A DNA stretch of 64,000 nucleotides from Dactylorhiza incarnata. Taxonomy: Eukaryota > Streptophyta > Magnoliopsida > Asparagales > Orchidaceae. The translations under genes were made by a program, and so were the position numbers. Where the stretch lies: NCBI GenBank assembly GCA_033032865.1, contig JAWHQI010000099.1, positions 7,910,501 through 7,974,500 of the forward strand, read 5' to 3'. The notes beneath the pieces were generated by a model. It searched no databases. It saw only the letters and a list, made by a program, of their open reading frames with translations, and was not told the origin of the DNA. Positions 15,733-51,086 of this stretch are shown here, in pieces. Within the stretch, counting starts at the first letter, position 1; each line of letters starts with the position of its first letter.

Positions 15733-15750
15733 TGGCGCCGTTGCCGGGGA
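15733..15750 (+). other. ATH2 primer-binding site (tRNA-Asp type)
   Basis: TGGCGCCGTTGCCGGGGA, the site characteristic of Athila elements, lies 6 nt after the LTR end. ATH3 carries the identical 18-mer. Confidence 0.92.
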
Positions 15751-16731: not shown

Positions 16732-16879
16732 TGTACAACCCTGTATTCGCCGAGTGGGCCCCCGATGACCAAGATATTTTTAGGCCCAATGTTTCCAAAG
16801 GGCACGACCCCGGGAGGAGTGGCGATGAGCATTGGGAGGGAGTCGAGTCTGAGGGGCGCATCCCAGGACTGTTCCCTTG

Positions 16880-18795
16880 TGGGGGCGAGCTGGGGAGGCC
16901 GGGAGGCCTACGGCTCGCCCAGAGCTTTGCGGGGGCGAGACGGGGAGGTCGGGAGGCCTCCGGCTCGCCCAGAGCTTTGTGGGGGCGAGCCGGGGAGGTC
17001 GGGAGGCCTCCGGCTCGCCCAGAGCCTAGTGGGGGCGAGCCGGGGAGGTCGAGAGGCCTCTGGCTCGCCCTGATCCTAGTGGGGGCGAGCCGGGGAGGCC
17101 GGGAGGCCTCCGGCTCGCCCAGAGCCTAGTGGGGGCGAGCCGGGGAGGCCGGGAGGCCTCCAGCTCGCCCAGAGCCTTGTGGGGGCGAGCCGGGGAGGCC
17201 GGGAGGCCTCCGGCTCGCCCAGAGCCTTGTGGGGGCGAGCTGGGGAGGTCGGGAGGCCTCCGGCTCGCCCAGAGCATAGTAGGGGCGAGTCGGGGAGGTC
17301 GGGGGGCCTCCGGCTCGCCCAGAACCTTGTGGGGGCGAGCCGGGGAGGCCGGGAGGCCTCCGGCTCGCCCAGAGCCTTGTAGGGGCGAGCCGGGGAGGTC
17401 GGGAGGCCTCCGGCTCGCCCAGAGCCTAGTAGGGGCGAGCCGGGGAGGCCGGGGGGCCTCCGGCTCGCCCAGAACCTTGTGGGGGCGAGTCGGGGAGGCC
17501 GGGAGGCCTCCGGCTCGCCCAGAGCTTTGTGGCGGCGAGCCGGGGAGGCCGGGAGGCCTCCGGCTCGCCCAGAGCTTTGTAGGGGCGAGACGGGGAGGCT
17601 GGGAGGCCTTCGGCTCGCCCAGAGCCTTGTGGGGGCGAGCCGGGGAGGTCGGGAGGCCTTCGGCTCGCCCAGAGCCTATTGGGGGTGAGCCGGGGAGGCC
17701 AGGAGGCCTCCGACTAGCCCAGAGCCTTGTGGGGGCGAGCCGGGGAGGCCGGGAGGCCTACGGCTCGCCCAGAGCCTTGTGGGGGAGAGCTGGGGAGGTC
17801 GGGAGGCCTCCGGCTCACCCAGAGCCTAGTGGGGGTGAGCCGGGGAGGCCGGCGAGGCCTCCGGCTCGCCCAGCAGCGGGGGACGAGCTCCACTCGCCCC
17901 TGCTCCCTAGTCCGGCAGCAAGGAGGGGTGTGTAAATGCACCCCAGCGAGACCTCACCAGGAGGGGTGTCTAAATGCACCCCAGCGAGACCTCACCAGGA
18001 GGGGTGTCTAAATGCACCCCAGCGAGACCTCACCAGGAGGGGTGTCTAAATGCACCCCAGCGTGACCTCACCATGAGGGGTGTCTAAATGCACCCCAGCG
18101 AGAACTCACCAGGAGGGGTGTCTAAATGCACCCCAGCGAGACCTCACCAGGAGGGATGTCTAAATGCACCCCAACGTGGGGGCGAGCCGGGGAGGCCGGG
18201 AGGCCTCTGGCTCACCCAAAACCTTGTAGGGGCGATTCGGGGAGGTCGGGAGGCCTTCGGCTCGCCCAGAGCCTAGTAGGGGCGAGCCGGGGAGGCCGGG
18301 AGGCCTCCGGCTAACCCAAAGCCTTGTGGGGAGCGAAACGGGGAGGCCGGGAGGACTCCGGCCCGCCCAGAACCTTGTGGGGGCGAGACGGGGTGGCCGG
18401 GAGGCCTCCGGCTCGCCCAGAGCTTTGTGGGGGTGAGCCGGGGAGGTTGGGAGGCCTCCGGCTCGCCCAGAGCCTAGTGGGGGCGAGCCGGGGGGGTGGG
18501 GGGGGGGGGGGGGGGGGGGCGGAAGGCCTCCGGCTCGCCCAGAGCCTTGTGGGGGCGAGCTGGGGAGGCCGGGAGGCCTCCGGCTCGCTCAGAGCCTAGT
18601 GGGGGCTAGACGGGGCGGCCGGGAGGCCTCTGGCTCGCCCAGAGCCTAGTAGGGGCGAGCCGGGGAGGAAGGAAGGCCTCCGGCTCGCCCAGAGCCTTGT
18701 GGGGGAGAGCCGGGGAGGCCGGGAGGCCTCCGGCTCTCCCTGAGCCTTGTGGGTGCGAGCCGGGGAGGCCGGGAGGCCTCCGGCTCGCCCCGCTC
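16880..18795. repeat. 50-bp GC-rich palindromic tandem array in TAT2 U3
   Basis: About 32 units of 50 bp, each containing CGAGCCGGGGAGG and its near-complement CCTCCGGCTCG around CCGGGAGG. A block of 38-bp units, each with GGGGTGTCTAAATGCACCCC, interrupts it at 17926-18172. The 3' LTR has the same arrangement at 48795-50580 with fewer units. The open frames across it are a by-product of the GC-rich repeat. Confidence 0.93.
18490..18519 (+). other. Poly-G tract in TAT2 5' LTR
   Basis: Six or more G, one T, then about 22 G. Absent from all other repeat units and from the 3' LTR. It could be a real expansion or an assembly or base-calling error. Confidence 0.8.
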
Positions 18796-27500: not shown

Positions 27501-28581
27501 TTTTCTGTCGGATGGAGCGGGCTCCTGGCTCAAGGTTGAGACGATGGCAAGCCACGTCCGCCTCGATGCCTGGCATGTCTGCCGCGCTCCATGCGAAGAT
27601 GTCCACGTTCTTCTGGATGCACTCCAGCATCCTTACCCTGTCCTCCGGGCTGAGGCCCCCGCTGACACGCACCTTCTCCACCCTTCCTCCCTGGGTGATA
27701 ACCTCCATCTCCACTACTTCCTCTGCCGCCTCAAGCCGAGCCGGATCTTCCCATCTGCCCCTCGCTTCTCGCCCCTCTACCCTGGCCTTCTCCTATGCCG
27801 TACCTTCCTCCTCCATTGGTTCGACCTGCTCCTCCTGAGCTACCTCCATCTCCTTTCCTAGGGCACTGCCCTCTTCCTCTTCTCCCCTCTTCTCCACTCC
27901 TTCTCCTGGCCCCTCCGGCCTTCTCATCTCTTCATCCATCTTCTCAGCCTCCGCCATCCAAGAGATGGTGTTGACGGCAGTCACATAACACTGCCTGGCC
28001 ACCTTTGCATCTCCCCGGATTCGGATCTGGACTCCTCCACTATGGAACTTCAAGCACTGGTGGTATGATGAGGGCACACATCGGAAGGCACTGATGAGGG
28101 GGCGCCAAAATATGGCATTGTAGCTGCTCGGAGCGTCAACGATGACGAACCGGCAGTTCCTTGGGACCCCTCCTAACGTCACCTGGAGGCCGACACCTCC
28201 CTCAACCTCCTTCCTTTCTCCTGAGAAACCAAACAGCGGCCCATCAGAGGCCTGCAGCCTCTTCTTCTCCACCTCCATCGCATCGATAGCCTTCTTGAAG
28301 ATAACATTCACCGAGCTCCCATTGTCCACCAGGATCCGAGAGACCGTGAAGTTTTCTATCGCCGTCTGGATCACCAGGGCGTCGCAGAACGGGTCCTCGT
28401 AATCGGGCATATCTTCCGAGGATAAGGTGAGCTTCTCTGTGGGGGGTGGGGTCTGGGAAGTTGATGCGACGTCTCTCCGGAACATTGCCTGGAAGCTCCT
28501 CTTGAGAGAGGCCTCTATCCCAACCCCACCATGAATCACCCCAATTCCCCCCTGGCTCCTGTATCCGCCCTGTCCTCGCAT
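24514..28581 (-). pseudogene. pol: TAT3 Pol: protease, RT, RNase H, second RNase H, integrase
   Basis: One continuous frame with three TAG codons (27793, 27421, 26056). Protease: L-V-D-N-G-S-S-V-N-V-I-F; the usual I-L-G-R-P reads I-F-W-R-P. RT: W-R-M-C-I-D-F, M-P-F-G-L-K-N-A-G-A-T-Y-Q and an intact Y-V-D-D. RNase H: Y-Y-V-S-R-V-L...V-V-T-D-H-P-L. The second, archaeal-type RNase H (L-V-D-G-A-S-S...I-D-S-M-V-I...H-I-P-R-E-E) is a Tat hallmark. Integrase: H-H-C-C zinc site (C-H-K-C-Q-M), catalytic D, D, E in W-G-M-D-L, V-T-D-N-G-P-Q-F and G-Q-V-E-T, and the C-terminal G-D-L-V-L...W-E-G-P-Y-V-V. It ends R-F-Y-P. If TAG were read through, or restored to CAG, all catalytic residues checked are present. 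Confidence 0.93.
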
Positions 28582-29924
28582 CGGTCCTCTTCCGCCTCCG
28601 AGAGCACTTCCTCGATCCTGGCCTGCTGCCGCCGTGGCTGACCTCTCTCTCTCATCTCCAGGAATTCTGGGTAGGTGGCGGTCGCGTGACCTTCTTCCTA
28701 ATGAAAATCACAGTAGGGCAACGCCACTCTGTCCCCCCTTCCTGCTCTTCCTCTCCCTCCTCTTGCTCCTCTACCTCCTCTTCCTCGGCCTACTGCCATA
28801 GCTTGCTCCCTTGGGGGGTGAGGGGGTCTGGGGCCTTGCCTCCACCCCGGATTCATTCCTCCCGCCTCTCTTCCCTGGTACCCCCCTTCCTGACCTCTCA
28901 CTGGTCCTTCCTGGTGCCTCCAGCCCAACCTGTTGTTGGGCTCTTGATTCCTCTAATTCTGAGGCGGTCTTTCGAACCCCTGACCCCTGGGTTCTTCTCG
29001 CCTTCTTCCTTCTTGCTGCCTCACCTCAGGCTCGCTCATCTTCGCCAACCTTTTGTAGAATTCTGGGTTGGCCGCCTCCCCTTCTATCTCCTCCGCTGCC
29101 CGCTCCATCAACTCCTCAAAGGAGAAAGGAGCCCTTCTCTTCAGGTCCATCTTGAAGAACCCATCTTGCAACCCCACGATGAATGCCATCTTGAGGGCGA
29201 ACCCCGGCACCTCCTGCACGAGGTGTATCTCCTCTTGGAATCTATCCACATAGTGTGCCAGTGATTCCCCCTCCCTTTGCCTGATCTTGAAGAGAGCCTC
29301 CACATCCTTCTTTCTCTTTTTCGGCGTCGAGAAGCGCAGCCGGAAGCTCCGGCGCAGATCGTCGAACGCGTAGATGGAACCTACGGGGAGCTGGTGGAAC
29401 CAGTCCCTAGCTTTCTCCTTCAAAGTGGTCGCGAAGAGTCCGCACTGAAAGGCATCCGTCATGGGCAGAATTGAAACCATGTCCTCAAACCATTGCAGGT
29501 GCACGACTGGGTCATCCTTGCCAGTATAATAGGACATCTCCGGCCCCCGGAACCCCTCTGGCACTGGGGCCGAGAGGATCATCTCGCAAAAAGGGCTTCC
29601 TTCCCCTGCTCGGCGAGTGGTCCTCTCGCGCGGAGCCAGCTCGCAGACCTCAGCACTCACCGGGCTGCTGAATAGCTGCCGCCCGGGGAGATCTCGCGCG
29701 CTTCCTTCCGCTGGCACTTCCTTCCCAGGTCGCTGCCCCAGAGCATTCTCGCCGATCTGCTGGGGCGGAACCATGGGAACTGCCGGCGTCTCGCACTCGC
29801 CTCTTCCTGCGAGAACCGTCTGCAAGACTTCTCGCTTGAACTTCTCAAACATCTCCAACCACTCCCCTGTCGCTGGTGTCTGCGAGTGGCCCGAGTCAGA
29901 ACCATTTCCCCCATCTCCTGTCAT
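28536..29924 (-). pseudogene. gag: TAT3 Gag
   Basis: ATG at 29924, chosen because the protein start then matches TAT2 Gag; the frame upstream offers only a GTG. The capsid core has V-V-H-L-Q-W-F-E-D-M...A-R-D-W-F-H-Q-L-P-V-G-S-I...F-R-L-R-F-S, typical of Tat Gag (Retrotrans_gag). An Arg/Gly-rich tail and the zinc-binding end (Y-C-D-F-H...E-E-G-H-A-T) follow. Two in-frame TAG codons (28953-28955 and 28698-28700) interrupt it; the second stands where TAT2 has Q (CAG). The frame ends at TGA 28536-28538, overlapping the pol frame by about 45 nt. It forms the particle that packages element RNA. Confidence 0.87.
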
Positions 29925-29965
29925 CCAACCTAGCTTGAGATTTTCCTTCACCGGCTACGGTTCAT

Positions 29966-31455: not shown

Positions 31456-31588
31456 AAGCCCGAGTCCAGGTCCCTGTGCTTAGTTTTGTTTCTTTGAGTC
31501 CATGTAGTAGGATGAAGCGTTTCTGTACTTGGTTTTCTTGCATGTAACCAGCTGACTAATGTAATAAAAGTTTTATTTTTCAAGATAT
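31456..31588 (+). other. Spacer between TAT2 Gag stop and tandem array
   Basis: Unique sequence of about 130 bp without coding sense, running into the first 78-bp unit. Confidence 0.7.
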
Positions 31589-34500
31589 TTTTCCCCTCAG
31601 ATGGTTCCGCTAGCCGGGCTCTCACTAGCCGGCAGGGCAGGTTGACCTCCCAGGGAGGGTACATATTTTTCCCCTCGGATGGTTCCGCTAGCCGGGCTCT
31701 CTCTAGCCGGCAGGGCAGGTTGACCTCCCAGGGAGGGTAAATATTTTTCCCCTCGGATGGTTCCGCTTGCCGGGCTCTCACTAGCCGGCAGGGCAGGTTG
31801 ACCTCCCAGGGAGGGTAATTATTTTTCCACTCGGATGGTTCCGCTAGCCGGGCTCTCTCTAGCCGGCAGGGCAGGTTGACCTCCCAGGGAGGGTAAATAT
31901 TTTTCCCCTAGGATGGTTCCGCTAGCCGGGCTCTCACTAGCCGGCAGGGCAGGTTGACCTCCCAGGGAGGGTAAATATTTTTCCCTCGGATGGTTCCGCT
32001 AGCCGGGCTCTCACTAGCCGGCAGGGCAGGTTGACCTCCCAGGGAGGGTAAATATTTTTCCCCTCGGATGGTTCCGCTAGGCGGGCTCTCTCTAGCCGGC
32101 AGGGCAGGTTGACCTCCCAGGGAGGGTAAATATTTTTCCCCTCGGATGGTTCCGCTAGCCAGGCTCTCTCTAGCCGGCAGGGCAGGTTGACCTCCCAGGG
32201 AGGGTAAATATTTTTCCCCTCGGATGGTTCCGCTAGCCGGGCTCTCTCTAGCCGGCAGGGCAGGTTGACCTCCCAGGGAGGTAAATATTTTTCCCCTCGG
32301 ATGGTTCCGCTAGCCGGGCTCTCACTAGTCGGCAGGGCAGGTTGACCTCCCAGGGAGGGTAAATATTTTTCCCCTCGGATGGTTCCGCTAGCCGGGCTCT
32401 CTCTAGCCGGCAGGGCAGGTTGACCTCCCAGGGAGGGTAAAATTTTCCCCCTCGGATGGTTCCGCTAGCCAGCAGGGCAGGTTGACCTCCTAGGGAGGGT
32501 AAATGCTTTTCGCTCGGATGGTTCAACTAGCCGGGCTCTCACTAGCCGGCGGGGCAGGTTGACCTCCCAGGGAGGGTAAATATTTTTCCCCTCGGATGGT
32601 TCCGCTAGCCGGGCTCTCACTAGCCGACAGGGCAGGTTGACCTCCCAGGGAGGGTAAATATTTTTCCCTCGGATGGTTCCGCTAGCCGGGCTCTCACTAG
32701 CCGGCAGGGCAGGTTGACCTCCCAGGGAGGGTAAATATTTTTCCCCTCGGATGGTTCCGCTAGCCGGGTTCTCTCTAGCCGGCAGGGCAGGTTGACCTCC
32801 CAGGGAGGGTAAATATTTTTCCCCTCGGATGGTTCCGCTAGCCGGGCTCTCACTTGCCGGCAGGGCAGGTTGACCTCCCAGGGAGGGTGAATATTTTTTC
32901 CCTCGGATGGTTCCGCTAGCCGGGCTCTCACTAGCCGACAGGGCAGGTTGACCTCCTAGGGAGGGTAAATATTTTTCCCCTCGGATGGTTCTGCTAGCCG
33001 GGCTCTCTCTAGCCGGCAGGGCAGGTTGACCTCCCAGGGAGGGTATATATTTTTCCCTCGGATAGTTCCGCTAGCCTGGCTCTCACTAGCCGGCGGGGCA
33101 GGTTGACCTCCCAGGGAGGGTAAATATTTTTCCCCTCGGATGGTTCCGCAAGCCGGGCTCTCTCTAGCCGGCAGGTCAGGTTGACCTCCCAGGGAGGGTA
33201 AATATTTTTCCCCTCGGATGGTTCCGCTAGGCGGGCTCTCTCTAGCCGGCAGGGCAGGTTGACCTCCCAGGGAGGGTAAATATTTTTCCCCTCGGATGGT
33301 TCCGCTAGCCAGGCTCTCTCTAGCTGGCAGGGCAGGTTGACCTCCCAGGGAGGGTAAATATTTTTCCCCTCGGATGGTTCCGCTAGCCGGGCTCTCTCTA
33401 GCCGGCAGGGCAGGTTGACCTCCCAGGGAGGTAAATATTTTTCCCCTCGGATGGTTCCGCTAGCCGGGCTCTCACTAGTCGGCATGGCAGGTTGACCTCC
33501 CAGGGAGGGTAAATATTTTTCCCCTCGGATGATTCCGCTAGCCGGGCTCTCTCTAGCCGGCAGGGCAGGTTGACCTCCCAGGGAGGGTAAAATTTTCCCC
33601 CTCGGATGGTTCCGCTAGCTAGCAGGGCAGGTTGACCTCCTAGGGAGGGTAAATGCTTTTCCCTCGGATGGTTCCACTAGCCGGGCTCTCACTAGCCGGC
33701 GGGGCAGGTTGACCTCCCAGGGAGGGTAAATATTTTTCCCCTCGGATGGTTCCGCTAGCCGGGCTCTCACTAGCCGACAGGGCAGGTTGACCTCCCAGGG
33801 AGGGTAAATATTTTTCCCTCGGATGGTTCCGCTAGCCGGGCTCTCACTAGCCGGCAGGGCAGGTTGACCTCCCAGGGAGGGTAAATATTTTTCCCCTTGG
33901 ATGGTTCCGCTAGCCGGGTTCTCTCTAGCCGGCAGGGCAGGTTGACCTCCCAGGGAGGGTAAATATTTTTCCACTCGGATTGTTCCGCTAGCCGGGCTCT
34001 CACTTGCCGGCAGGGCAGGTTGACCTCCCAGAGAGGGTGAATATTTTTTCCCTCGGATGGTTCCGCTAGCCGGGCTCTCACTAGCCGACAGGGCAGGTTG
34101 ACCTCCTAGGGAGGGTAAATATTTTTCCCCTCGGATGGTTCTGCTAGCCGGGCTCTCTCTAGCCGGCAGGGCAGGTTGACCTCCCAGGGAGGGTATATAT
34201 TTTTCCCTCGGATAGTTCCGCTAGCCTGGCTCTCACTAGCCGGCGGGGCAGGTTGACCTCCCAGGGAGGGTAAATATTTTTCCCCTCGGATGGTTCCGCT
34301 AGCCGGGCTCTCTCTAGCTGGCAGGGCAGGTTGACCTCCCAGGGAGGGTAAATATTTTTCCCCTCGGATGGTTCCGCTAGCCGGGCTCTCACTAGACGGC
34401 AGGGCAGGTTGACCTCCCAGGGAGGGTAAATGTTTTTCCCTCGGATGGTTCCGCTAGCCGGGCTCTCACTAGCCGGCAGCGCAGGTTGACCTCCCAGGGA

Positions 34501-34718
34501 GGGTAAATATTTTTCCCCTCGGATGGTTCCGCTAGCCGGGCTCTCTCTAGCCGGCAGAGTAGGTTGACCTCCCTGGGAGGGTAAATATTTTTCCCCTCGG
34601 ATGGTTCCACTAGCCGGGCTCTCACTAGCCGGCAGGGCAGGTTGACCTCCCAGGGAGGGTAAATATTTTTCCCTCGGATGGTTCCGCTAGCCGGGCTCTC
34701 ACTAACCGGCAGGGCAGG
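31589..34718. repeat. 78-bp tandem array, about 40 units, TAT2 interior (left part)
   Basis: The unit contains CCCCTCGGATGGTTCCGCTA, two CTAGCCGG boxes and AGGTTGACCTCCCAGGGAGG. It shows a higher-order duplication of about 1150 bp: rare variants at 32056, 32277, 32446 and 33041 recur at 33206, 33427, 33593 and 34191. As 78 = 3 x 26, long spurious frames appear on the minus strand. ATH3 interrupts the array at 34718/34719. Confidence 0.95.
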
Positions 34719-34882
34719 TGATGAATAGTAAATATACGCATTTTTCTATATAATTTTTAGTATAATTTTAATTAGATTTCTAAATAATATATGTAAATTA
34801 ATGAATAAAATGTTTGTTTTTGTTATTTTTGTTTTTAACTTAGTTTTATTTTCATTTTGTAAAGTTTTTGTAATTTTGTTAA

Positions 34883-35340
34883 GTCACGCCCTTGGTCACG
34901 CCCGTGTCTAAGGGCGTGTTCACTAATCCCTAACATTTTCTTCTCTGTTCTTTTTCCACCTCAAACATCAAGTAACGCCCTCGGTCACGCCCGTGACCGA
35001 GGCCGTGTACCATGGTCACGCCCGTGTTGGATATCCATCCCAGATTCCAGCCACTTGAAGCATTTCAACCAAAAAATCAAAGTCACGGCCGTGACATTTC
35101 AGACACGCCCGTGACCCTCAACTCCTTCCAGAAGAACAAAGGACACGCCCCCCATCACGCCCAACAGCCGACAGCACAATGCCGACATCGAACACGCCCG
35201 TGTTCCCTGGAACACGCCCGTGTACTTCCAAGTCGCCGGTCAAGCCTTCCAGATACCTGCCTGGATCCAACTGTTCTGGCTATTCGCACCCCAAGCCATG
35301 TCACGCCCTCAGACACGCCCGTGTCCGAGGGCGTGTAATC
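34883..35340. repeat. CACGCCCGTG-type palindrome array in ATH3 U3
   Basis: About ten copies of CACGCCCGTG, CACGGCCGTG or ACGCCCT...AGGGCGT in both orientations, ending about 14 bp before the TATA box. The motif family is the same as in ATH2. Confidence 0.88.
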
Positions 35341-35353
35341 CAAATTTTTTTTC

Positions 35354-35362
35354 TATAAATAG
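35354..35362 (+). promoter_or_regulatory. TATA box of ATH3 left LTR
   Basis: TATAAATAG just after the palindrome array. The inverted right LTR has its counterpart near 45380 on the minus strand, so two promoters point toward each other. Confidence 0.75.
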
Positions 35363-35977
35363 CCAGATTCAGCTGAGTGCAAGGGTTCAAAATTTTGGGA
35401 ACTTCTCTTAAGGTTTTGTTCCATTTTGCTGATTTTTGGTGTTTTGTAATGTTTGTAATTTTGCACTTTCTCTCTCTAGTTTTGTAACCCCTTTTTTGAT
35501 GGAAATAAATTAAGCTTGTTTTGTAATTATTGTCTCTCTTTGTTTTAGTGTGTGTGTGTGTGTTCTCTTTTTGTTCTTTTTCTTTTTATTTTTAGTTTTA
35601 TGCAATTTTGTAATTTTTGTTAAGTTGTCATTTTAATTTGGGTGTGTGTGTGTATGAGTGTAATTTTCTTGTTTTTAGTTTTGTTGTAATTTTTAGATGA
35701 TTTCATATTAGTGTGTGTGAGTGTAGGAGGTTAATTAGTTTTTTGTTTTGTTTTGTTTTCATTTGTTCTTTTTACTTTCTTTTTGCTTTTTTGTAAGTGT
35801 GTGTGTGTGTATGAGAGTAGATTTTCTTTTCTTTTTAACTTAGTTTCATTATTGTTGTGTGTGTGAGTGTATGAGTTTAGATTTGTTTTATTTTAATTAG
35901 ATTTCATTAACGTAGAGTGGGTGTGTGTATGAGTATAAAGTTTGCGCCTTTTTTGTAATCGAATAGTTTCCATTTCC

Positions 35978-36175
35978 GTCACGCATTTATTTCTCTCCTA
36001 TCCGTTTGGATAGGACTTGCTCACGCATTTATTTCACGCCTATCCGTTTGGGTAGGGCTTGCTCACGCATTTATTTCCCGCCTATCCGTTTGGATAGGAC
36101 TTGCTCACACATTTATTTCCCGCCTATCCGTTTGGATAGGACTTGCTCATGCATTTATTTCCCCTCTACCCATTT
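35978..36175. repeat. 42-bp tandem repeat, about 5 units, in transcribed part of ATH3 LTR
   Basis: Units contain CACGCATTTATTTCCCGCC and the short hairpin CTATCCGTTTGGATAG. They lie downstream of the TATA box, so probably in the RNA leader. The right LTR holds the inverted copy at about 44570-44768. Confidence 0.88.
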
Positions 36176-37111
36176 GGGTAGGGATCGCATTTCTTCAATT
36201 TCTGCAATTTACAGCTTTCATTTTAATCCCGTAGAGTGCGTGAGTTTTCAATTAGTGCGTCTTTTATTTTTTTATATATTTGCTTTTTGCTTAATTCCGC
36301 TACCCGCTCAATCGCTTATTATCGCCGTAGTTATCATTATCGTTTTATAAAACCCTAAAAAATTTTAAGCAAAACTACTTTTTAAATTAACGTTTTCGTT
36401 CTTTTTCTTTTCATCGCTTTTCTTGGTTTTTGCTAAACGCACACCAAGCCCGCGATAGTTATCATTTTCGTCACTAGCTTTTCTATAAAATCATAAAAAT
36501 CAATTTCAAACTCTTTTCGATAAAATAATAGCGCGTTCCTAAGAAGTAGAAATAATCGATACGACCTTGGAAAAATACGACCTTGATATTTCAAAAGAAA
36601 TATCCTATACTACTATCGATAAGGTCCACTTGCCTTTATTGATTTTAGTCCGGATAATTACATAAACCCAAAAGCTTTCTCTCTAAAGCACTTTTTAAAA
36701 CTCTCTTTTAAAAACACTAAAAAATTTGTTGCAACACCTCTTTGGTTGTTGCAACTAGCTCAAGGTAAAAGAAGTTTTAAAACGCTCTTAAAGAATTGTT
36801 GCAACTACTCAAAAAATTGTTGCAACAATATTTTCAAAAAGCTTTCAATTTTAATTTCAACATAAAGCCCTTTTTCAATCTTTTCATTTAGCCTTCAGAG
36901 GACGCGGCCGAGGAGTAATCCTCGATATTTCGAAAGAGAAAGAGTCTGTTACTTCTATCCTTCGATAGGATAACGGGTAATTCCTCAAAGTAGAATTACT
37001 CGCGGGACTCTTCGAAAACGTCCGCCCAAGGTTGAATCGAAAAGAAAGAAAGAGCTTTCTTCTCTTTCTTCTCTCTTTCAAAGAGAGAGAAAAAAATACG
37101 TATCAAGTTTT

Positions 37112-37129
37112 TGGCGCCGTTGCCGGGGA
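37112..37129 (+). other. ATH3 primer-binding site (tRNA-Asp type)
   Basis: TGGCGCCGTTGCCGGGGA, 6 nt after the LTR end, identical to the ATH2 site. Confidence 0.92.
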
Positions 37130-37546
37130 CTTGTGTCGTTATTTTGAAATAGGAAACGCTATTAATTTTTATCTTATATTTCATCTCTTTTTCTATCTAA
37201 AAAACCAAAAACTAAAAAAATATACTATCTAAGTAAAGAAAAATAAAAAAAAAATTATATACATATATTTTTTGATTTTCCTTTTTTACATATATTTACG
37301 AATATAGCTACATATATTTTCATATAAAAGCCCCACAAAAATCAAACCGCAAAAAATATATATTTATATATTTTACTTAAGTAAAGAAAAACCCAAAAAA
37401 ATATATTATTCTCTTTTACTTATTTTCCTTTCTTTTTCATCTTTGTAAAAATATTTCTATAACAAAAACATCAAAAAAAAAAAAATCTATAAAAAGAAAA
37501 ACAAGAAAACTCTTTCTTCCAAAAAAAATTAATTAAAGAATAGTGT
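37130..37546 (+). other. ATH3 leader between primer site and gag-pol
   Basis: Strongly A-rich untranslated sequence with no ORF. Confidence 0.7.
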
Positions 37547-40500
37547 ATGACCCGAGGAGAATCTTCGGATAATCCAATTTTACCTTTTGATCCCGAAATC
37601 GAGCGCACGCTTCTCGAGCGCCGCCGATCTCATAATCAAAATCTACAAATAGCTCCCGAAGAATCCGTCGGCGATATACATATAGGCGTGATGGGCGATC
37701 CTAATCTAAATGCGGCCCCACCGAGGACCATGGCCTATTATGCTAGGCCAAATTTAGAGGATACAGGATCGAGCGTCACCCGCCCCGCGGTAGCTAATAA
37801 TAATTTCGAAATCAAATCCAGTATAATTCAAATGGTACAACAGTCGATTCAGTTCGACGGTTTGCCAGATGAGGACCCAAACCAACACCTTAATAATTTT
37901 TTAGAAATTTGCGACACCTTCAAGATTAATGGCGTCAGCGATGACGCCATTCGCTTGCGCTTATTTCCCTTTTCCCTGCGGACAAAGGCGAAATCGTGGT
38001 TGACTTCTCTTCCGAGAGGGTCCATAACCACGTGGGCCGAATTGACGGAGAATTTTCTAACTAAATATTTTCCTCCGTCAAAAACCGCTAAATTACGCAC
38101 CGATATCGCATCCTTCATTCAATTCGATTCCGAGTCTCTCTACGAGACTTGGGAACATTTTAAAGAATATTTGCGTAGGTGTCCTCATCACGCGCTACCA
38201 ACTTGGCTTCAGGTACAAACGTTCTATAACGGCTTGAATTTCTCAACGAGACAGATGATCGACGCAGCCGCCGGGGGAACGTTAAACAACAAAACCCCGG
38301 AGGCCGCTCAAGCTCTGATCGAAGAAATGGCCATGAACGCGTACCAATGGAATGTGCCAAGGTCGCGTCCTCCTAAACCGGCTGGTATTTTCGAAGTGGA
38401 TGCCACTACTCATTTAGCCTCGCAGGTAGAGCGGCTAAGTAAGCAAGTGGCGGAGATGACTGCTTCCTCCTCCACTCCCGCTTGGGCTAATAATCCTAAT
38501 AATAATAATAATAATAATTTTAATAATCCAAATAATAATAATAATAATTTTAATAATCTTAATAATAATAATCTTAATAATAATATTAATAATAACAATA
38601 ATTTAAGCGAGGAATCGGTGGATTACGTGGGCAATCAAGTGCGGGCGCCCTTCAACCCATATAGTAATAACTATAACCCGGGTTGGAGGAGCCACCCGAA
38701 CTTCTCCTGGAGTAACCCTAATAATGCGCAACGCCCTCCACCTGCGATCCCGCAAGGATTTCCGCGTGGATATCCCCAAGGATTTCAGCAGGGTTTTGCG
38801 CCTCCTCCTCCAAAACCTTCTCCTCTCGAGGAGATTTTTGCAAAATACATGGCTTCCAACGACGCAAATTTCCGGAATATAACCGGATCGCTAAAAAATT
38901 TAGAAATGCAGGTTGGACAGCTTGCAAAAATGGTCTCCGAGCGGCCACTTGGAGCACTACCTGGGAACTCGGAGCAGAACCCGCGTGAAAATGCCCACGC
39001 CATTACCTTACGCAGCGGCAAGGAGGTCGACTCCCCATTGCGGGTTGAGCATCAGGTAACTGTTTCGCCTCCGACCCCTGCACCCTCGTCTTTTATTTTA
39101 TTAGATACGGAAAAATCATTAGCGCCGGGCGTCTCGAGCCCGCAAATTCTGTACCCCGCAAAACTTAATAAAGAGAAGGAGGACGAACATTACAAAAAGT
39201 TTTTACAAATTTTTAAACAAATTCAAATTAACGTCCCCTTCTGCGAGGCACTCTCACAAATGCCGAAATATGCGAAATACCTTAAGGAGCTCCTTTCTAA
39301 TAAAAAGAAGCTCGAGGGTATTTCGCGTGTTTCCTTAAATGCGGAATGCTCGGCGGTCCTACTTAATAAATTGCCGCCAAAACTAAACGACCCGGGAAGG
39401 TTTTCCATCCCGTGCCTATTCGGCAATTTATTAATAAAGTACGCCCTAGCGGACCTGGGAGCGAGCATCAATTTGATGCCCTTCTCCCTCTTTAAAAAAC
39501 TCGATTTGGGAGTTCCCACCCCAACGAAAATGAGCATCCAACTCGCGGATCGCTCGATAAAATATCCTATCGGGGTAGTGGAGGATGTTCTGGTCAAGGT
39601 TGACAAGTTTATCTTTCCTGTAGACTTCGTCATCCTCGACATCGAGGAGGATGCCGAGGTGCCAATTATCCTCGGTCGCCCTTTCCTCGCGACCTCCCGC
39701 GCATTAATTGATGTGAGTAACGGTCGCCTCCTCCTTCGGGTAGGGGACGACGAAGTTACCCTTCTTATTAATCCCTCGATGCGAAATTCTTTATCGAACG
39801 ATGATTCTTGCTTTCACTTAGAATCCGCGTTCGAGGATGAGTGTTCTTCGCTATATGAATTACTTGCTTTAAATTTAGACGAACCGGATTTGGCGGACCT
39901 CGCCCCTTTGGACGAGTTACCGCCAGATTCGCCTTTCGAATCTTTTAATTCTAAAAGTTTAAAAATAACAACTTCTTACGAAGAACCCCCGGTCTTGGAG
40001 CTTAAGCCACTCCCTGACCATTTAAGATACGCTTTTCTTGCCGCGGACTTAAAACTCCCGGTTATTATTTCGTCTTCTTTATCTGATTCGGAAACTTCCG
40101 AATTAGTTAAAGTTTTGTCCACGCATCGCCATGCAATTGCATGGCAGATTTCCGATATTAGGGGGATAAATCCCTCTTTTTGCACGCACAAAATCTTCTT
40201 AGAAGATAATTCCCGCAAAACCATCCAGCCTCAGCGACGATTAAACCCAAATATGCGGGAGGTCGTTAAGGCTGAAGTAATAAAATTAATGGATGCGGGG
40301 ATTATCTACCCTATATCCGACAGCACGTGGGTTAGTCCCATTCATGTCGTGCCTAAAAAGGGCGGTATAACGGTAGTGGCAAATGAACATAACAAATTAA
40401 TTCCAACTCGTACTGTTACGGGTTGGAGGGTGTGCATCGATTACCGAAAATTAAATGATGCCACCCGCAAAGACCACTTTCCGTTACCGTTTATCGATCA

Positions 40501-42907
40501 AATTTTGGAGCGACTATCGGGTCATCCTTATTATTGTTTTCTCGATGGTCTTTCGGGATTTTTACAAATTCCTATCTCCCCCGAAGACCAGGAGAAAACA
40601 ACCTTTACGTGCCCCTTCGGTACCTTCGCGTACCAAAGGATGCCATTCGGCCTCTGCAACACGCCAGCTACATTTCAACGATGTATGATGGCGATCTTTG
40701 GAGAGCTCGTAGAGGATATTATGGATGTCTTTATGGATGACTTCTCGGTTTTTGGAAGCTCCTTCCAAAACTGCCTCCAAAATTTAGATCGAGTCCTCCA
40801 ACGATGCGAAGACACGAACCTGGTTTTAAACTGGGAAAAGTGTAATTTTATGGTTCGAGAAGGCTTAGTTCTCGGGCACAAAATTTCTGAAAGAGGGATG
40901 GAGGTCGACAAGGCCAAGGTCGAAATAATTGAAAAACTCCCCGCGCCCTCAAATATAAAATCAATTCGTAGTTTTCTTGGCCACGCGGGTTTCTATAGGC
41001 GGTTTATTCAAAACTTTTCCAAAATAACAAAACCGCTAACCCACCTCCTGGAGAAGGAATCTCCATTTATTTTTGATAATGCGTGCGTAGAGGCATTCAA
41101 TGCCATAAAAAATAAACTTATCCATTCTCCCATTCTGGTGGCGCCCGATTGGACCCTTCCGTTTGAGATTATGTGCGACGCGAGTGATATAGCGGTAGGG
41201 GCCGTATTAGGCCAACGCGTTAATAAATATTTTCATCCTATCTACTACGCGTCTCGCACGCTCACGGCCGCACAGGCTAATTACACGACAACGGAAAATG
41301 AACTCCTTGCCGTCGTCTTCGCCATAGATAAGTTTAGGCCCTACGTCACGCTTTCAAAAATTAGAGTATTTACCGACCACTCCGCCCTAAAAAATTTATT
41401 AGAAAAAATGGGCGCTAAGCCCCGCCTTCTTCGATGGATCCTCCTATTACAAGAATTTGATTTAGAGATCCGCGATAAGAAGGGGGTCGAAAATTTAGCG
41501 GCCGACCACCTTTCTCGTTTAGAACACCCAATCGCGGAAGCGCTCTTCGAACCGGAAATCGATGATCGATTTCCCGAGGAGCGTCTTTTAGCTTTAAATA
41601 ATTTAAAAACTTCTCCCTCGCCTTGGTTCGCAGACTACGCCAACTATTTAGTTGCGCGGGTGCTCCCGAAAGACTTTTCAAAACAACAAAAGAAGAAATT
41701 CTTTTCTGATTTAAAAAATTACTTTTGGGAGGACCTTTTCTTATTTCGCGTCTGCGCGGACCAAGTCGTGCGGAGATGCGTTTCGAGCGAGGAGGGTGCG
41801 CAAAATTTGCGGCACTGCCACGAAGGGCCGGCCGGGGGGCATTATCAAGCCAACCGGACCGCGCAGAAGGCGCTGGAGGCGGGCTTTTATTGGCCCGCTC
41901 TCTTCAAAGACGCTCACACTTTTGTGAGCGCATGCGATAGCTGTCAACGGTCGGGTAACATCTCTCGTCGCGACGAGATGCCCCAAAAATTTTATTTAGA
42001 ATGCGAGATTTTCGATTTATGGGGCATAGATTTCATAGGCCCCCTACCTCCTTCATATACAAATCGCTACATTTTAGTGGCGGTCGACTACGTATCTCGT
42101 TGGGCGGAAGCACAAGCTCTCCCCACCAACGATGCGAGAGTCGTCGTCAAATTTCTTAAAAAATTATTTTCTCGCTTCGGTACGCCCCGTGCGATAGTTA
42201 GTGATAGGGGTACGCACTTTTGCAATGCCCAGTTTGCAAAAACATTAACCAAATATGGCGTTACGCATAAGCTCGCCACCGCCTATCACCCCCAAACGAG
42301 CGGCCAAGTGGAGGTAGTAAATCGGGAAATCAAACGCATATTAGAAAAAACCATTTCAACTAATAGGAAGGATTGGGCACTTAAATTAGACGACGCGCTG
42401 TGGGCATATCGTACGGCGTACAAGACCGCAATCGGTTGTACGCCTTATCGATTAGTCTACGGCAAGGCGTGCCATTTGCCCGTAGAATTAGAGCACCGCG
42501 CTTTTTGGGCGTTAAAACTCTTAAATCTTGATCATAATTTAACCGCCGATAATCGGAAATTCCAATTAAACAAACTCGATGAATGGCGTGCGAACGCTTA
42601 CGAGAGTAATAAATTTTATAAGGAACGCTCGAAATTTTACCACGACCGGAAAATAAAATATCCAAAATCATTTGCGCCGGGCGTTCTCGTCCTCCTATAT
42701 AACTCACGTCTTCGTCTTTTTCCAGGGAAACTAAAATCCCGTTGGTCCGGCCCCTTTCAAGTGAAAGAGATTTGGCCATACGGGACCGTCCTTATCACCC
42801 ACCCGGAAAAAGGCAACTTAAAAGTTAACGGTCACCGACTAAAACTCTACCACGCGGGGGATCAACTAGGAGGGAAGTTAAATTCCATACCCCTCCCCCA
42901 CCTCTAA
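37547..42907 (+). CDS. gag-pol: ATH3 Gag-Pol polyprotein (1786 aa, uninterrupted)
   Basis: ATG 37547 to stop 42907 without a break. Gag capsid core about residues 94-265 ([12 protein letters not shown]...[13 protein letters not shown]). Residues about 316-354 are mostly Asn, encoded by AAT/AAC repeats, just before E-S-V-D-Y-V-G-N, where related Athila Gags have a CCHC knuckle; none is present. Protease L-A-D-L-G-A-S-I-N about 635. RT W-R-V-C-I-D-Y about 960 with F-M-D-D at 1062. RNase H C-D-A-S-D about 1209. Integrase zinc site about 1422, D, D, E near 1493, 1551 and 1587 ([18 protein letters not shown]). It should yield particle, protease, RT/RNase H and integrase. Intactness and similar LTRs indicate recent insertion. 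No env-like ORF follows. Confidence 0.96.
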
Positions 42908-43631
42908 AAAGATCGTACCCCGCCAACGCGTCAAGCTACGAGACGGTAAACAAAGCGCTCGTGGGAGGCACCCCCATATTTATCCAATTACGCCCCTTTT
43001 TTTATAAAACAAAAAAAAATGATGAAATAAATTTTCATTAAAAAAAAATATAAAAACTTAAACAAAAATAATAATAATAAATAATAATAATAAATAATAA
43101 TAATAAATAAAAAATAAAAAAACAAAATGAAAAAAAAATAATAATAATATTAATAATTATGCATATTTTAAATTATCATTCTTTTTCAAAAAAGAAACAT
43201 AAAACAAAATAAAATAATGCAAAAACTTTAAAACAAAAATCAAAAAGAATTTTGGGAATTTTAAGATAAGACAATAGGAAGTTTCTCAAAGTAGGATTAC
43301 TCGACAGACCCGAGAGGGGATTTTTGTCGATATTTCGAAACGAGAAAACCCCGTTGCTTTTACCTTTTTATTTCTCTTCTTTCTTCCTTGGTTTTTATCT
43401 TAAAGCCTTTTCTTTATTTTACCTTATTTTATCTTTCTTAAAATTTAGATATATTTTAAAACATGCATATTTTAAAATTAAAACCAAAAAAAAAATACAT
43501 ATAATATAAATAATAACATAAAAAGATGATAAAAATTTATTTTTATCATACCAAAAAATATATGTTTTTTTACTTCTTGTATTCGTGTTTTGTACATTTC
43601 GAAATACGTATCAAGTTTTTGGCGAAAAACT
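42908..43631 (+). other. ATH3 tail and palindromic LTR junction
   Basis: Begins with GGGAGGCACCCCC, matching the ATH2 3' UTR, then A-rich (AAT)n sequence. From about 43270 it recalls a diverged U5 and leader (CTCAAAGTAGGATTACTCG; compare CTCAAAGTAGAATTACTCG at 36987). At 43603-43624 a plus-oriented LTR end plus start of primer site (ACGTATCAAGTTTTTGGCG) abuts the inverted copy (AAAAACTTGATACGT), forming a hairpin with loop GGCG. No polypurine tract was found. Confidence 0.75.
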
Positions 43632-46023
43632 TGATACGTATTTTTTTTCTCTCTCTTTGAAAGAGAGAAGAAAGAGAAGAAAGAGAAGAAAGCTCTTTCT
43701 TTCTTTTCGATTCAACCTTGGGCGGACATTTTCGAAGAGTCCCGCGAGTAATTCTACTTTGAGGAATTACCCGTTATCCTATCGAAGGATAGAAGTAACG
43801 AACTCTTTCTCTTTCGAAATATTGAGGATTACTCCTCGGCCGCGTCCTCTGAAGGCTAAATGAAAAGATTGAAAAAGGGCTTTATGTTGAAATTAAAATT
43901 GAAAGCTTTTTGAAAATATTGTTGCAACAATTTTTTAAGTAGTTGCAACAATTCTTTAAGAGCGTTTTAAAACTTCTTTTACCTTGAGCTAGTTGCAACA
44001 ACCAAAGAGGTGTTGCAACAAATTTTTTAGTGTTTTTAAAAGAGAGTTTTAAAAAGTGCTTTAGAGAGAAAGCTTTTGGGTTTATGTAATTATCCGGACT
44101 AAAATCAATAAAGGCAAGTGGACCTTATCGATAGTAGTATAGGATATTTCTTTTGAAATATCAAGGTCGTATTTTTCCAAGGTCGTATCGATTATTTCTA
44201 CTTCTTAGGAACGCGCTATTATTTTATCGAAAAGAGTTTGAAATTGATTTTTATGATTTTATAGAAAAGCTAGTGACGAAAATGATAACTATCGCGGGCT
44301 TGGTGTGCGTTTAGCAAAAACCAAGAAAAGCGATGAAAAGAAAAAGAACGAAAACGTTAATTTAAAAAGTAGTTTTGCTTAGAATTTTTTATGGTTTTAT
44401 AAAACGATAATGATAACTACGGCGATAATAAGCGATTGAGCGGGTAGCGGAATTAAGCAAAAAGCAAATATATAAAAAAATAAAAGACGCACTAATTGAA
44501 AACTCACGCACTCTACGGGATTAAAATGAAAGCTGTAAATTGCAGAAATTGAAGAAATGCGACCCCTACCCAAATGGGTAGAGGGGAAATAAATGCGTGA
44601 GCAAGTCCTATCCAAACGGATAGGCGGGAAATAAATGCGTGAGCAAGTCCTATCCAAACGAATAGGCGGGAAATAAATGCGTGAGCAAGTCCTATCTAAA
44701 CGGATAGGCGGGAAATAAATGCGTGAGCAAGTCCTATCCAAACGGATAGGCGAGAAATAAATGCGTGACGGAAATGGAAACTATTCGATTACAAAAAAGG
44801 CGCAAACTTTATACTCATACACACACCCACTCTACGTTAATGAAATCTAATTAAAATAAAACAAATCTAAACTCATACACTCACACACACAACAATAATG
44901 AAACTAAGTTAAAAAGAAAAGAAAATCTACTCTCATACACACACACACTTACAAAAAAGCAAAAAGAAAGTAAAAAGAACAAATGAAAACAAAACAAAAC
45001 AAAAAACTAATTAACCTCCTACACTCACACACACTAATATGAAATCATCTAAAAATTACAACAAAACTAAAAACAAGAAAATTACACTCATACACACACA
45101 CACCCAAATTAAAATGACAACTTAACAAAAATTACAAAATTACATAAAACTAAAAATAAAAAGAAAAAGAACAAAAAGAGAACACACACACACACTAAAA
45201 CAAAGAGAGACAATAATTACAAAACAAGCTTAATTTATTTCCATCAAAAAAGGGGTTACAAAACTAGAGAGAGAAAGTGCAAAATTACAAACATTACAAA
45301 ACACCAAAAATCAGCAAAATGGAACAAACCTTAAGAGAAGCTCCCAAAATTTTGAACCCTTGCACTCAGCTGAATCTGGCTATTTATAGAAAAAAATTTT
45401 GGATTACACGCCCTCGGACACGGGCGTGTCTGAGGGCGTGACATGGCTTGGGGTGCGAATAGCCAGAACAGCTGGATCCAGGCAGGTATCTGGAAGGCTT
45501 GACCGGCGACTTGGAAGTACACGGGCGTGTTCCAAGGAACACGGGCGTGTTCGATGTCGGCATTGTGCTGTCGGCTGTTGGGCGTGACGGGCGGCGTGTC
45601 CTTTGTTCTTCTGGAAGGAGTTGAGGGTCACGGGCGTGTCTGAAATGTCACGGCCGTGACTTTGATTTTTTGGATGAAATGCTTCAAGTGGCTGGAATCT
45701 GGGATGGATATCCAACACGGGCGTGACCATGGTACACGGCCTCGGTCACGGGCGTGACCGAGGGCGTGACTTGATGTTTGAGGTGGAAAAAGAACAGAGA
45801 AGAAAATGTTAGGGATTAGTGAACACGCCCTTGGACACGGGCGTGACCAAGGGCGTGACTTAACAAAATTACAAAAACTTTACAAAATGAAAATAAAACT
45901 AAGTTAAAAACAAAAATAACAAAAACAAACATTTTATTCATTAATTTACATATATTATTTAGAAATCTAATTAAAATTATACTAAAAATTATATAGAAAA
46001 TTGCGTATATTTACTATTCATCA
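43632..46023 (-). repeat. ATH3 right LTR (2392 bp, inverted)
   Basis: Reverse complement of the left LTR with few differences in the stretches compared. The 42-bp tandem, TG-rich blocks, palindromes and U3 end all appear in inverted order. Ends CTATTCATCA, then TSD GCAGG. Confidence 0.95.
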
Positions 46024-47058
46024 GCAGGTTGACCTCCCAGGGAGGGTAAATATTTTTCCCCTCGGATGGTTCCGCTAGCCGGGCTCTCTCTAGCCGGCAG
46101 GGCAGGTTGACCTCCCAGGGAGGGTAAATATTTTTCCCCTCAAATGGTTCTGCTAGCCGGGCTCTCACTAGCCGGCAGGGCAGGTTAACCTCCCAGAGAG
46201 GGTGAATATTTTTTCCCTCGAATGGTTCCGCTAGCCGGGATCTCACTAGCCGGCACGACAGGTTGACCTCCCAGGGAGGGTAAATATTTTTCCCCTCGGA
46301 TGGTTCCGCTAGCCGGGCTCTCTCTAGCCGGCAGGGCAGGTTGACCTCCCAGGGAGTTTATATATTTTTCCCCTCGGATGGTTCCGCTAGCCGGGCTTTC
46401 ACTAGCCGACAGGGCAGGTTAACCTCCCAGGGAGGGTAAATATTTTCCCCTCGGATGGTTCCGCTAGCCGGGCTCTCACTAGCTGGCAGGGCAGGTTGAC
46501 CTCCCAGGGAGGGTAAATGTTTTCCCTCGGATGGTTCTGCTAGCCGGGCTCTAACTAGCCGGCAGGGCAGGTTGACCTCCCAGGGAGGGTAAATATTTTT
46601 CCCCTCGGATGGTTCCGCTAGCCGGGCTCTCTCTAGCTGGCAGGGCAGGTTGACTACCCAGGGAGGGTAAATATTTTTCCCCTCGGATGGTTCCGCTAGC
46701 CGGGCTCTCACTAGCCGGCAGGGCAGGTTGACCTCCCAGGGAGGGTAAATATTTTTCCCTTGGATGGTTCCGCTAGTCGGGCTCTCACTAGCCGGCAGGG
46801 CAGGTTGACCTCCCAGGGAGGGTAAATATTTTTCCCCTCGGATGGTTCCGCTAGTCTGGCTCTCTCTAGCCGGCAGGGCAGGTTGACCTCCCGGGGAGGG
46901 TAAATATTTTTTCCCTCAGATGGTTCCGCTAGCCGGGCTCTCACTAGCCGGCAGGGCAGGTTGACCTCCCAGGGAGGGTAAATTTTTTTCCCCTCGGATG
47001 GTTTCGCTAGCCGGGCTCTCGCTAGCCGGCAGGACAGGTTGACCTCCTATGGAGGGTA
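46024..47058. repeat. 78-bp tandem array, about 13 units, TAT2 interior (right part)
   Basis: Resumes in the same orientation and mid-unit after ATH3. The TSD copy GCAGG at 46024-46028 joins directly to TTGACCTCCC. Confidence 0.95.
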
Positions 47059-47059
47059 A

Positions 47060-48643: not shown

Positions 48644-51086
48644 TGTACAACCCTGTATTCGCCGAGTGGTCCCCTGAGGCCCAAGATATTTTTAGGCCCA
48701 ATGTTTCCAAAGGGCGCGACCCCGGGAGGAGGGGGGATGAGCATTGGGAGGGAGTCGAGTCTGAGGGGTGCATCCCAGGACTGTTCCCTTGTGGGGGCGA
48801 GCCGGGGAGGTCGGGAGGCCTCCGGCTCGCCCAGAGCCTAGTGGGGGCAATCCGGGGAGGCGGGAGGCCTCCGGCTCGCCCAGAGCCTAGTGGGGGCGAG
48901 CCGGGGAGGCCGGGAGGCCTCCGGCTCGCCCAGAGCCTAGTGGGGGCGAGCCGGGGAGGCCGGGAGGCCTCCGGCTCGCCCAGAGCCTTGTGGGGGCAAG
49001 CCGGGGAGGCCGGGAGGCCTCCGGCTTGCCCAGAGCCTTGTGGGGGCGAGCCGGGGAGGTCGGGAGGCCTCCGGCTTGCCCAGAGCCTAGTAGGGGCGAG
49101 CCGGGGAGACCGGGGGGCCTCCAGCTTGCCCAGGACCTTGTGGGGGCGATTCGGGGAGGCCGGGAGGCCTCCGGCTCGCCCAGAGCCTTGTAGGGGCGAG
49201 CCGGGGAGGTCGTGAGGCCTCCGGCTCGCCCAGAGCCTAGTAGGGGCGAGCCAGGGAGGCCGTGGGGCCTCTGGCTTGCCCAGAACCTTGTGTGGGCGAG
49301 CCGGGGAGGCCGGGAGGCCTCCGGCTTGCCCAAAGCTTTGTGGGGGCAAGACGGGGAGGCCGGGAGGCCTTCGGCTCGCCCAGAGCCTTGTGGGGGCGAG
49401 CCGGTGAGGCCGGGAGGCCTTCGGCTCGCCCAGAGCCTTGTAGGGGCGAGTTGGGGAGGTCGGGAGGCCTTCGGCTCGCCCAGAGCCTATTGGGAGCAAG
49501 CCGGGGAGGCCAGGAGGCCTCCGACTCACCCAGAGCTTTGTGGGGGCGAGCCGGGGAGGCTGGGAGGCCTCTGGCTTGCCCAGAGCCTTGTGGGGGCGAG
49601 CCGGGGAAATCTGGAGGCCTCCGGCTTGCCCAGAACCTAGTGGGGGCGAGCCGGGGAGGCTGGGGAGGCCGCCGACTCGCCCAGCAGCTGGGGACGAGCT
49701 CCACTCGCCCCTGCTCCCTAGTCTGACAGCTAGGAGGGGTGTCTAAATGCACCCCAGCGAGACCTCACCAGGAGGGGTGTCTAAATGCTCCCCAGCGAGA
49801 CCTCACCATGAGGGGTGTCTAAATGCACCCCAGCGAGACCTGACCAGGAGGGGTGTCTAAATGCACCCCAGCGAGACCTCACCAGGAGGGATGTCTAAAT
49901 GCACCCCAACGTGGGGGCGAGCCGGGGAGGCCGGGAGGCCTCCGGCTCGCCCAGAACCTTATCGGGGCGAGCCGGGGAGGTCGGGAGGCCTTCGGCTCTC
50001 CCAGAGCCTAGTATGGGCGTGCCGGGGAGGCCGGGAGGCCTCCAGCTCACCCAGAGCCTTGTGGGGGCGAGCCGGGGAGGCCGGGGAGACCGGGGAGACC
50101 GGGAGGCCTCTGGCTCGCCCAGAACCTTGTGGGGGCGAGCCGGGGAGTCCGGGAGGCCTCCGGCTCGCCCAGAGCCTTGTGGGGGAGAGCCGAGGAGGTC
50201 GGGAGGCCTCCGGCTCGCCCAGAGCCTAGTGGGGGCGAGCCGGGGAGGCCGGGAGGCCTCCGGCTCGCCCAGAGCCTAGTAGGGGCAAGCCGGGGGGCTG
50301 GAAGGCCTCCGGCTCACCCAGAGCCTTGTGGGGGCGAGCCGGGGAGGCCGGGAGGCCTCCGGCTTGCCTAAAGCCTAGTGGGGGCGATCCGGGGAGGCCG
50401 GGAGGCCTCCGGCTCGCCCAGAGCCTAGTAGGGGCGAGCCGGGGAGGCCGGAAGGGCTCCGGCTCGCCCAGAGTCTTGTGGTGGCGAGCCGGGGAGGGCG
50501 GGAGGCCTCCGGCTCGCCCAGAGCCTTGTGGGAGCGAGCCGGGGAGGCTGGGAGGCCTCCGGCTCGCCCAGCTCCAAGCCGGGTAAGCGGTCTGCGTTTA
50601 GCGCCCATGAACAGCGGGATTTGGCTATTCGCAGTCCAGTTTTGGTTATTCGCAGTCCAAGAGCAGCGGGATTTGGCTATCTGCAACCCAGTTCAAGGGT
50701 ATTTTGGTAATCTGGCAGACTAGTTTTCGGCTATTTGCAGCCCAACTTCAGAAATCCTATAAATAGGACCAAGGGTGCACCATTTGAATGGATCTCATTC
50801 TAGGCTAGCTCTCTCCCTCTCTCTCTCCCTCCCCAAGTCTCTCTAGGGGGTGAGGAGAGCCTCCAGTGGTGCCCAAGCTTAGTAGTGGCTTGGGAGGGGA
50901 AGTTCCTAGGGAACTTCCGGGTATGTGGCGGGACCTCCCCACTAAGCCCTTGGTCCAGTTCCTAGTTCCAACACCTTCAACCTAGAGCTCTCCCTTGGGA
51001 GGAGTAAGGATTGGTCGCCCCTCGGCTAGCTGAGGGCCCTGAACTCCACAGAGACTAAGTCTTATTCGCAAGTCTCGGTTTCAACA
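48644..51086 (+). repeat. TAT2 3' LTR (2443 bp)
   Basis: Direct repeat of 16732-19296 with fewer 50-bp and 38-bp units. Ends TTTCAACA, followed by TSD TATAC. Confidence 0.94.

Follow-up and report, generated by a model that had tools for sequence, protein, structure and literature searches.

A retrotransposon bounded by two long terminal repeats (LTRs) in opposite orientation, with a U3 end facing the host at both termini and a tail-to-tail (U5-to-U5) join in its interior, is present in the 64,000-nucleotide stretch of DNA analyzed here (the window; contig C3183, 7910501-7974500), its structure being read from the assembled sequence of a 3.27-Gb genome. We consider it highly probable that this two-U3 composite was formed before integration and, with distinctly less assurance, favor its origin by the joining of two DNA molecules.

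Target site and LTRs of the insertion

The left LTR (34719-37105, plus strand, with CTATAAATA at 35353) and the right LTR (43632-46023, minus strand, with CTATAAATA at 45381 on that strand) both have their U3 ends outward, and their alignment in opposite orientation spans 2398 columns, one additional base at either inner end included, and shows 27 substitutions (19 transitions and 8 transversions) and 15 gap positions. The outer ends, TGATGAATAG and CTATTCATCA, are both U3 ends, each adjoined by GCAGG in the sequence (34714-34718 on the left and 46024-46028 on the right), and both LTR promoters point inward. In an ordinary insertion, one outer end is U3 and the other U5, both LTRs run in one direction, and a polypurine tract adjoins the U3 of the 3' LTR; these traits are absent here, and both U3 ends adjoin host DNA. 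The host sequence is a 78-bp tandem array, the left (31585-34718) and right (46024-47059) parts of which are in unchanged phase. Near the insertion its units follow the order A-B-C, from which some array units depart. The original prediction that the LTRs are mutually reverse complementary with U3 at both outer termini, and that GCAGG lies on both sides in a host repeat that continues in register, is thus borne out at the level of individual bases.

When the flanks are joined without the element, they restore one 78-bp A unit followed by a B unit, as the A-B-C order requires. The simplest reading is a single insertion into an uninterrupted array. A tandem array supplies many copies of one site, and two elements could in principle have inserted in opposite directions at equivalent positions in two repeat units and then been fused by a deletion between them. 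We regard this as highly improbable: chance would have to supply both an identical base position within the 78-bp unit and a matching A-B-C phase (about 1 in 200 by our estimate), and two extra junctions would be needed, along with a U5 end that integration would trim. Further, the target duplications of two ordinary copies, CGCAC and CCTGC, make no strong site preference visible, and the comparable insertions in contigs C166 and C843 described below are not known to sit in arrays.

The substitution divergence of the two LTRs is 1.1% (27 of 2383 ungapped columns). When 18 of the substitutions were compared with 37 other copies, 13 were private to the left LTR, 3 were private to the right LTR, and 2 were shared, a weak comparison that takes in only about the first 1.65 kb of the LTR and in which the alignment is shifted in 42-bp repeats; the excess on the left has a P value of 0.02. 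This pattern would suit LTRs that were nearly identical at the time of insertion.

Several other repeats are found in the window. The array hosting the insertion lies upstream of the gag of an older element of the Ty3 type that carries an RVT_3 domain (24514-29951, minus strand), which we take to be Tat-like. Far to either side of that element are two arrays (16875-18790 and 48787-50571) with similar 50-bp and 38-bp tandem repeats. A second copy of the 18-base primer site (at 15733) falls in an 82-bp stretch (15728-15809) with 78% similarity to the 5' internal part of the inverted-LTR element, and this may be read as an older related element.

Interior of the element and its family assignment

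The primer binding site, TGGCGCCGTTGCCGGGGA, is read at 37112-37129 (plus strand), separated from the left LTR by AGTTTT (37106-37111); we take it to be complementary to tRNA-Asp, the presumed primer. A primer site of the tRNA-Asp kind is an Athila trait. Downstream is an open gag-pol frame of 1786 amino acids (37547-42907, plus strand), in which a domain search recovered, on the same strand, gag (37958-38239), reverse transcriptase (RT; 40415-40885), RNase H (41147-41458), and the integrase core (rve; 42014-42292), the Ty3 order required of Athila. A second RNase H (RVT_3) and a chromodomain are traits that separate Ty3/gypsy lineages; neither is among the seven Pfam families found in gag-pol at an E value of 0.001, and no protease family was recovered from the 1786-codon frame at that threshold. 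Among the best 120 of 7956 matches to the RT region, five proteins of the orchid Platanthera zijinensis have 80 to 87% identity and the other 115 have at most 76%, which makes an orchid host probable; no protein in this set is named Athila. The element is classified as probably Athila-type Ty3/gypsy.

Comparison with five ordinary copies (in C3006, C2629, C777, C2740, and C632) delimits the 3' internal region that is left over (42908-43604, plus strand). Homology to all five ends exactly at 43604, beyond which the ordinary copies continue for 1349 to 1797 bp to the next U3, a stretch missing from the window. The gag-pol had been described as fully intact; its frame is indeed open, but with the 3' internal part beyond 43604 gone, the element is incomplete. 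In four of the five ordinary copies, a purine-rich tract (AAGTATGAGGGTG or AAGTATGGGGGTG plus about two bases) lies ahead of the U3 that follows the 3' internal part; the exception, C777, has other sequence ahead of its U3. In that copy (C777:3624600-3635100; L018 and L019), ATTGCCGCAC precedes both the left LTR, on the host side, and the right LTR, on the internal side, where it occupies the place in which a polypurine tract would be expected. No target duplication was recognized for the C632 pair, and a scripted motif search returned no 3' LTR end for C3006 and C2629. Since its two promoters point inward and a second direct LTR is lacking, the window element would not be expected to replicate by the ordinary route.

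The inner junction

The 27 bases ahead of the right LTR belong neither to the internal region nor to the LTR. The first 20 of them (43605-43624; TACGTATCAAGTTTTTGGCG) are the final bases of U5 followed by the initial bases of the primer site, and AAAAACT (43625-43631) is retained on the U5 end of the inverted LTR. Together with adjoining bases, they constitute a 19-bp hairpin (43602-43643), the left arm of which (43602-43620) is the U5 end with the first primer-site bases and the right arm of which (43625-43643) is the inverted U5 end, with GGCG (43621-43624) as the loop; none of 200 shuffles folds equally well. The internal region and this stub meet at AAA, which is common to both parents. 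At the outer ends of the ordinary insertions in C777 and C2740, the bases between the LTR and the primer site are absent. Hence, as these bases vanish in ordinary insertions yet persist here, the inner U5 end of the right LTR is, to judge from its sequence, uncut by integrase, and the inner junction is a tail-to-tail join. The first reading had recognized the two-U3 structure correctly and had missed the 3' deletion and the hairpin stub. The retained bases also rule out a nested insertion, as integration removes them.

Inverted LTRs could likewise result if an element had inserted normally and its right LTR had been inverted afterward. Such an inversion would have to break exactly at the target duplication, AAAAACT would then be missing from the inner end, and the missing 3' part and the U5 stub would be left unexplained. 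These base-level junctions lead us to reject it, in agreement with the original prediction, and we give it practically no chance.

Tail-to-tail joins elsewhere in the genome

The exact, family-specific junction of the window occurs at one locus genome-wide, the window itself. A slightly different junction pattern recovers, in addition, C688 and C2947; the two are mutual copies, in which a piece of U5, but no LTR, is inserted in inverted form at the primer site. At these two places (C688:6024000-6030000, L024; C2947:196000-202000, L025), which are about 98% alike, the U5 end occurs twice between the LTR and the primer site, first inverted and then direct, and the inverted piece starts with the sequence expected of the 3' end of the primer tRNA. 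The general pattern for a U5-U5' join beside the primer site of the window, TCAAGTTTTTN{0,15}AAAAACTTGA, has 65 loci in the genome, with none for the reversed control; these and the other join-pattern counts below are of exact matches. Of the further copies that the original prediction had asked about, there are none with the exact junction, while joins of the same kind are found in related LTR families. Fifty of the 65 loci were listed, 15 were retrieved (C688 among them), and 3 were traced to both outer ends.

Of the 30 arms at the 15 retrieved loci, 25 have a match in another arm that reaches to the U5 end, and arms joined at one locus often differ in LTR type (labeled X and Y in the present analysis). 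Among the 50 listed centers, 28 divide into two primer-site prefixes and 22 do not, as against a random expectation of 8.5 on average and 16 at most (2000 random sets of 50 centers); the most frequent centers are G, C, and GC, and one locus has the full GGCGCC. A polypurine tract lies directly ahead of U3 in 8 of the 30 arms (L064a, L066a, L070b, both arms at C166 [L065], both at C843 [L075], and one at C876 [L076], the other, left, arm of which is truncated). Judged by this tract, these eight arms are evidently 3' LTRs of elements, and ordinary integrated copies of such LTRs would have lost the stub past U5. At L071, a U3-like start is seen with just two bases ahead of it; a U3 start was not seen in the retrieved sequence of the remaining arms. 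The arms of L067 are identical for about 70 bases and unrelated beyond, and this may be a case like the shortened arm of the window. L062 (C22:5074163-5077186) is a 3-kb palindrome around a U5-U5 join with arms 99.7% identical, which is either very young or an assembly artifact.

Searches for paired ends place the window arrangement in context. In a 301-base search, the window pair is, by eye, the sole opposite-strand pair less than 20 kb apart within the 40 of 1542 candidates that were scored. In a set of 100 of the 736 U3 ends, neighbors within 40 kb form 39 pairs on the same strand and a single opposite pair, at a spacing of 31 kb; a second convergent pair at a closer spacing is absent from this set. 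A large inverted arrangement at C33:2718197-2796512 has four U3 ends in the order + + - -, spaced at 23.7, 31.1, and 23.5 kb. At C2607:1080807-1100906 (four ends) and C35:108893-115796 (two ends), same-direction U3 ends of the window LTR family recur every 6.6 kb, as against the usual 10.2 to 11 kb, in what looks like a tandem, internally shortened element.

Two further probable composite insertions

An unprocessed U5-U5' join, two U3 outer ends, and one 5-bp duplication are found together in the window element and at two further loci, C166 and C843; we propose this combination as the mark of a class of tail-to-tail cDNA composites. At C166, CTTCT lies at both outer U3 ends. The left CTTCT is followed by the left partner, which consists of 460 bp of a Y-type LTR, a deletion, the internal end with its polypurine tract, and LTR X; after LTR X, the right partner follows with inverted LTR Y, a polypurine tract, the internal region, a primer site, inverted LTR X, and CTTCT. 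Identity is 95.6% over 1714 bp between LTR X of the left partner and the right partner's 5' LTR, and 94.8% over 462 bp between the left outer LTR and the right partner's LTR Y. Such a swap of LTRs would be expected from two cDNAs made from two genomes in one particle, with intermolecular plus-strand transfer. The target of this insertion is a copia-type gene, the frame of which is open across the joined flanks. At C843, the order is ATTAG, LTR X, primer site, internal region, polypurine tract, and LTR X, joined there to inverted LTR Y and its polypurine tract. The right outer end, predicted beforehand as GGGACTCATCA followed by ATTAG, was found at C843:2226015-2226030 (plus strand); this string has 13 matches in the genome, and the contiguous reading of C843 extends to 2220100. 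As both LTRs of the left partner at C843 are of type X (96.4%), the swap seen at C166 is not general.

Inverted repeats are prone to assembly error, and misassembly or chimeric reads could imitate such structures. We consider this improbable in the window. The window contains no N. The 27 differences between the LTRs indicate that the right one is no fold-back copy of the left, the join is nonhomologous while both outer ends are exact, and the same logic holds at the two unrelated loci.

Joining and reverse transcription as possible sources of the composite

Joins of other ends were also found. A U5-U3 pattern has 65 matches (controls, 2 and 0), 24 of which resemble an unrelated repeat (...AAAA before TGATGAATA) and were excluded from the joins, and a U3-U3 pattern has 15 loci (controls, 1 and 1), these being pattern matches only. 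As U5-U3 joins are indicated and U3-U3 joins possibly so, cDNA joining seems, on these patterns, to extend beyond U5 ends. Three U5-U3 joins occur 1.4 kb apart, about one LTR length, at C2079:245135-247958, a run of tandem head-to-tail LTRs with unprocessed ends.

The original prediction was that integrase had joined an aberrant two-U3 cDNA made by an error of reverse transcription. Its two-U3 part is well supported by the 5-bp duplication, the phase of the array, the unprocessed inner U5 end, and the independent duplications of C166 and C843; reverse transcription error as the sole cause is not established and is one option. On that account, the plus strand folds back or switches template at the primer site and copies the U5 and LTR that it already carries, so that a single cDNA acquires two U3 ends and no second molecule is joined to it. 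The window LTRs are alike, as it would have them, and the join lies inside the primer site, with the stub starting where tRNA-primed synthesis would. It also gains from the GGCGCC palindrome of the primer site, which forms the full center of one locus, and from the inverted U5 pieces inserted at the primer site in L024 and L025. Nevertheless, arms of mixed type, as seen at other loci, are impossible by fold-back of a single strand, the listed centers are most often G, C, or GC, not GGCGCC, and U5-U3 joins also occur. We therefore hold an error of this kind alone to be unlikely, although far from negligible.

Because the arms at other loci are of mixed LTR type and 8 of 30 are visibly 3' LTRs, we instead propose the end-to-end joining of two cDNAs. 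The tRNA primer is removed during cDNA synthesis, and linear cDNAs would retain a few bases past U5. At its unprocessed U5 end, an Athila-type cDNA (LTR-gag-pol-...) would have become linked tail-to-tail with another DNA that carried an LTR, likewise at an unprocessed U5 end. Integrase would then have acted on the U3 ends left at either side, processing and inserting both together and duplicating GCAGG. As one partner is now a bare LTR and the left arm measures just 19 bp, the window calls for a second event. The 3' part of the left partner, along with almost the whole of its second LTR, would have been lost. One possibility is that the minus strand jumped early from U5 to the 3' internal region; another is a deletion, at the AAA microhomology, that removed one arm of an extended LTR=LTR' palindrome. 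The second partner could have been plus-strand strong-stop DNA from the start or could have been reduced later by solo-LTR recombination. From these structures we infer that end joining made the join, and likewise in what order the events took place and by which path the deletion arose.

Implications and comparison with known systems

These insertions provide evidence, at the level of the genome, that in vivo the integrase of a plant retrotransposon is capable of inserting DNA through a pair of U3 ends; the joins are many traces, within one genome, of cDNA joining before integration. Tail-to-tail joins are thereby a concrete and recurring source of inverted LTRs. More tentatively, and with the balance of our judgment against it, we raise the possibility that Athila-type elements regularly make tail-to-tail cDNAs as a minor product, in particles containing two different genomes, and that integrase inserts these by two U3 ends, each being an inverted repeat capable of yielding double-stranded RNA and of silencing its own family. 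If this is true, each such insertion starts as an inverted repeat, and in the window, with promoters directed inward, double-stranded LTR RNA and silencing of the family would be possible.

The window element is like Athila in having gag, RT, RNase H, and integrase in a single frame, long LTRs, and a 5-bp duplication, and differs in its inverted LTRs, two U3 outer ends, and loss of the 3' internal part. Head-to-tail (2-LTR) cDNA joins are known in retroviruses and retrotransposons. As in those joins, the ends of linear cDNAs are linked here with the bases past the LTR retained; in contrast, the window join is U5 to U5 and was integrated, with a target duplication, via two U3 ends. Purified integrases can use two like ends in concerted integration assays; these share with the window the action of integrase on a pair of like ends, but ours is a genomic insertion rather than a test-tube product. 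DIRS-type elements use a tyrosine recombinase and produce no target duplication. Their inverted terminal repeats resemble those of the window, but a DIRS-like element is ruled out by the rve integrase and the GCAGG duplication.

Circular cDNA forms are mentioned for plant LTR elements in a 2025 review (PMC12786077), in the consulted portions of which the words inverted, dimer, and concatemer are absent, and the parts of the open-access literature that we surveyed yielded no description of integrated retroelements with two U3 ends. For silencing of EVD in Arabidopsis, one study (PMC11624286) suggests that LTR hairpins from head-to-head or tail-to-tail insertions might aid its onset. Structures of this type are located here at known places, and that of the window still has an open gag-pol frame. 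Mu killer is a rearranged DNA transposon, an inverted copy of which is able to yield hairpin RNA. The window element shares with it the inverted copy and the potential for hairpin RNA, but differs in being a retroelement that would have been inverted before its insertion.
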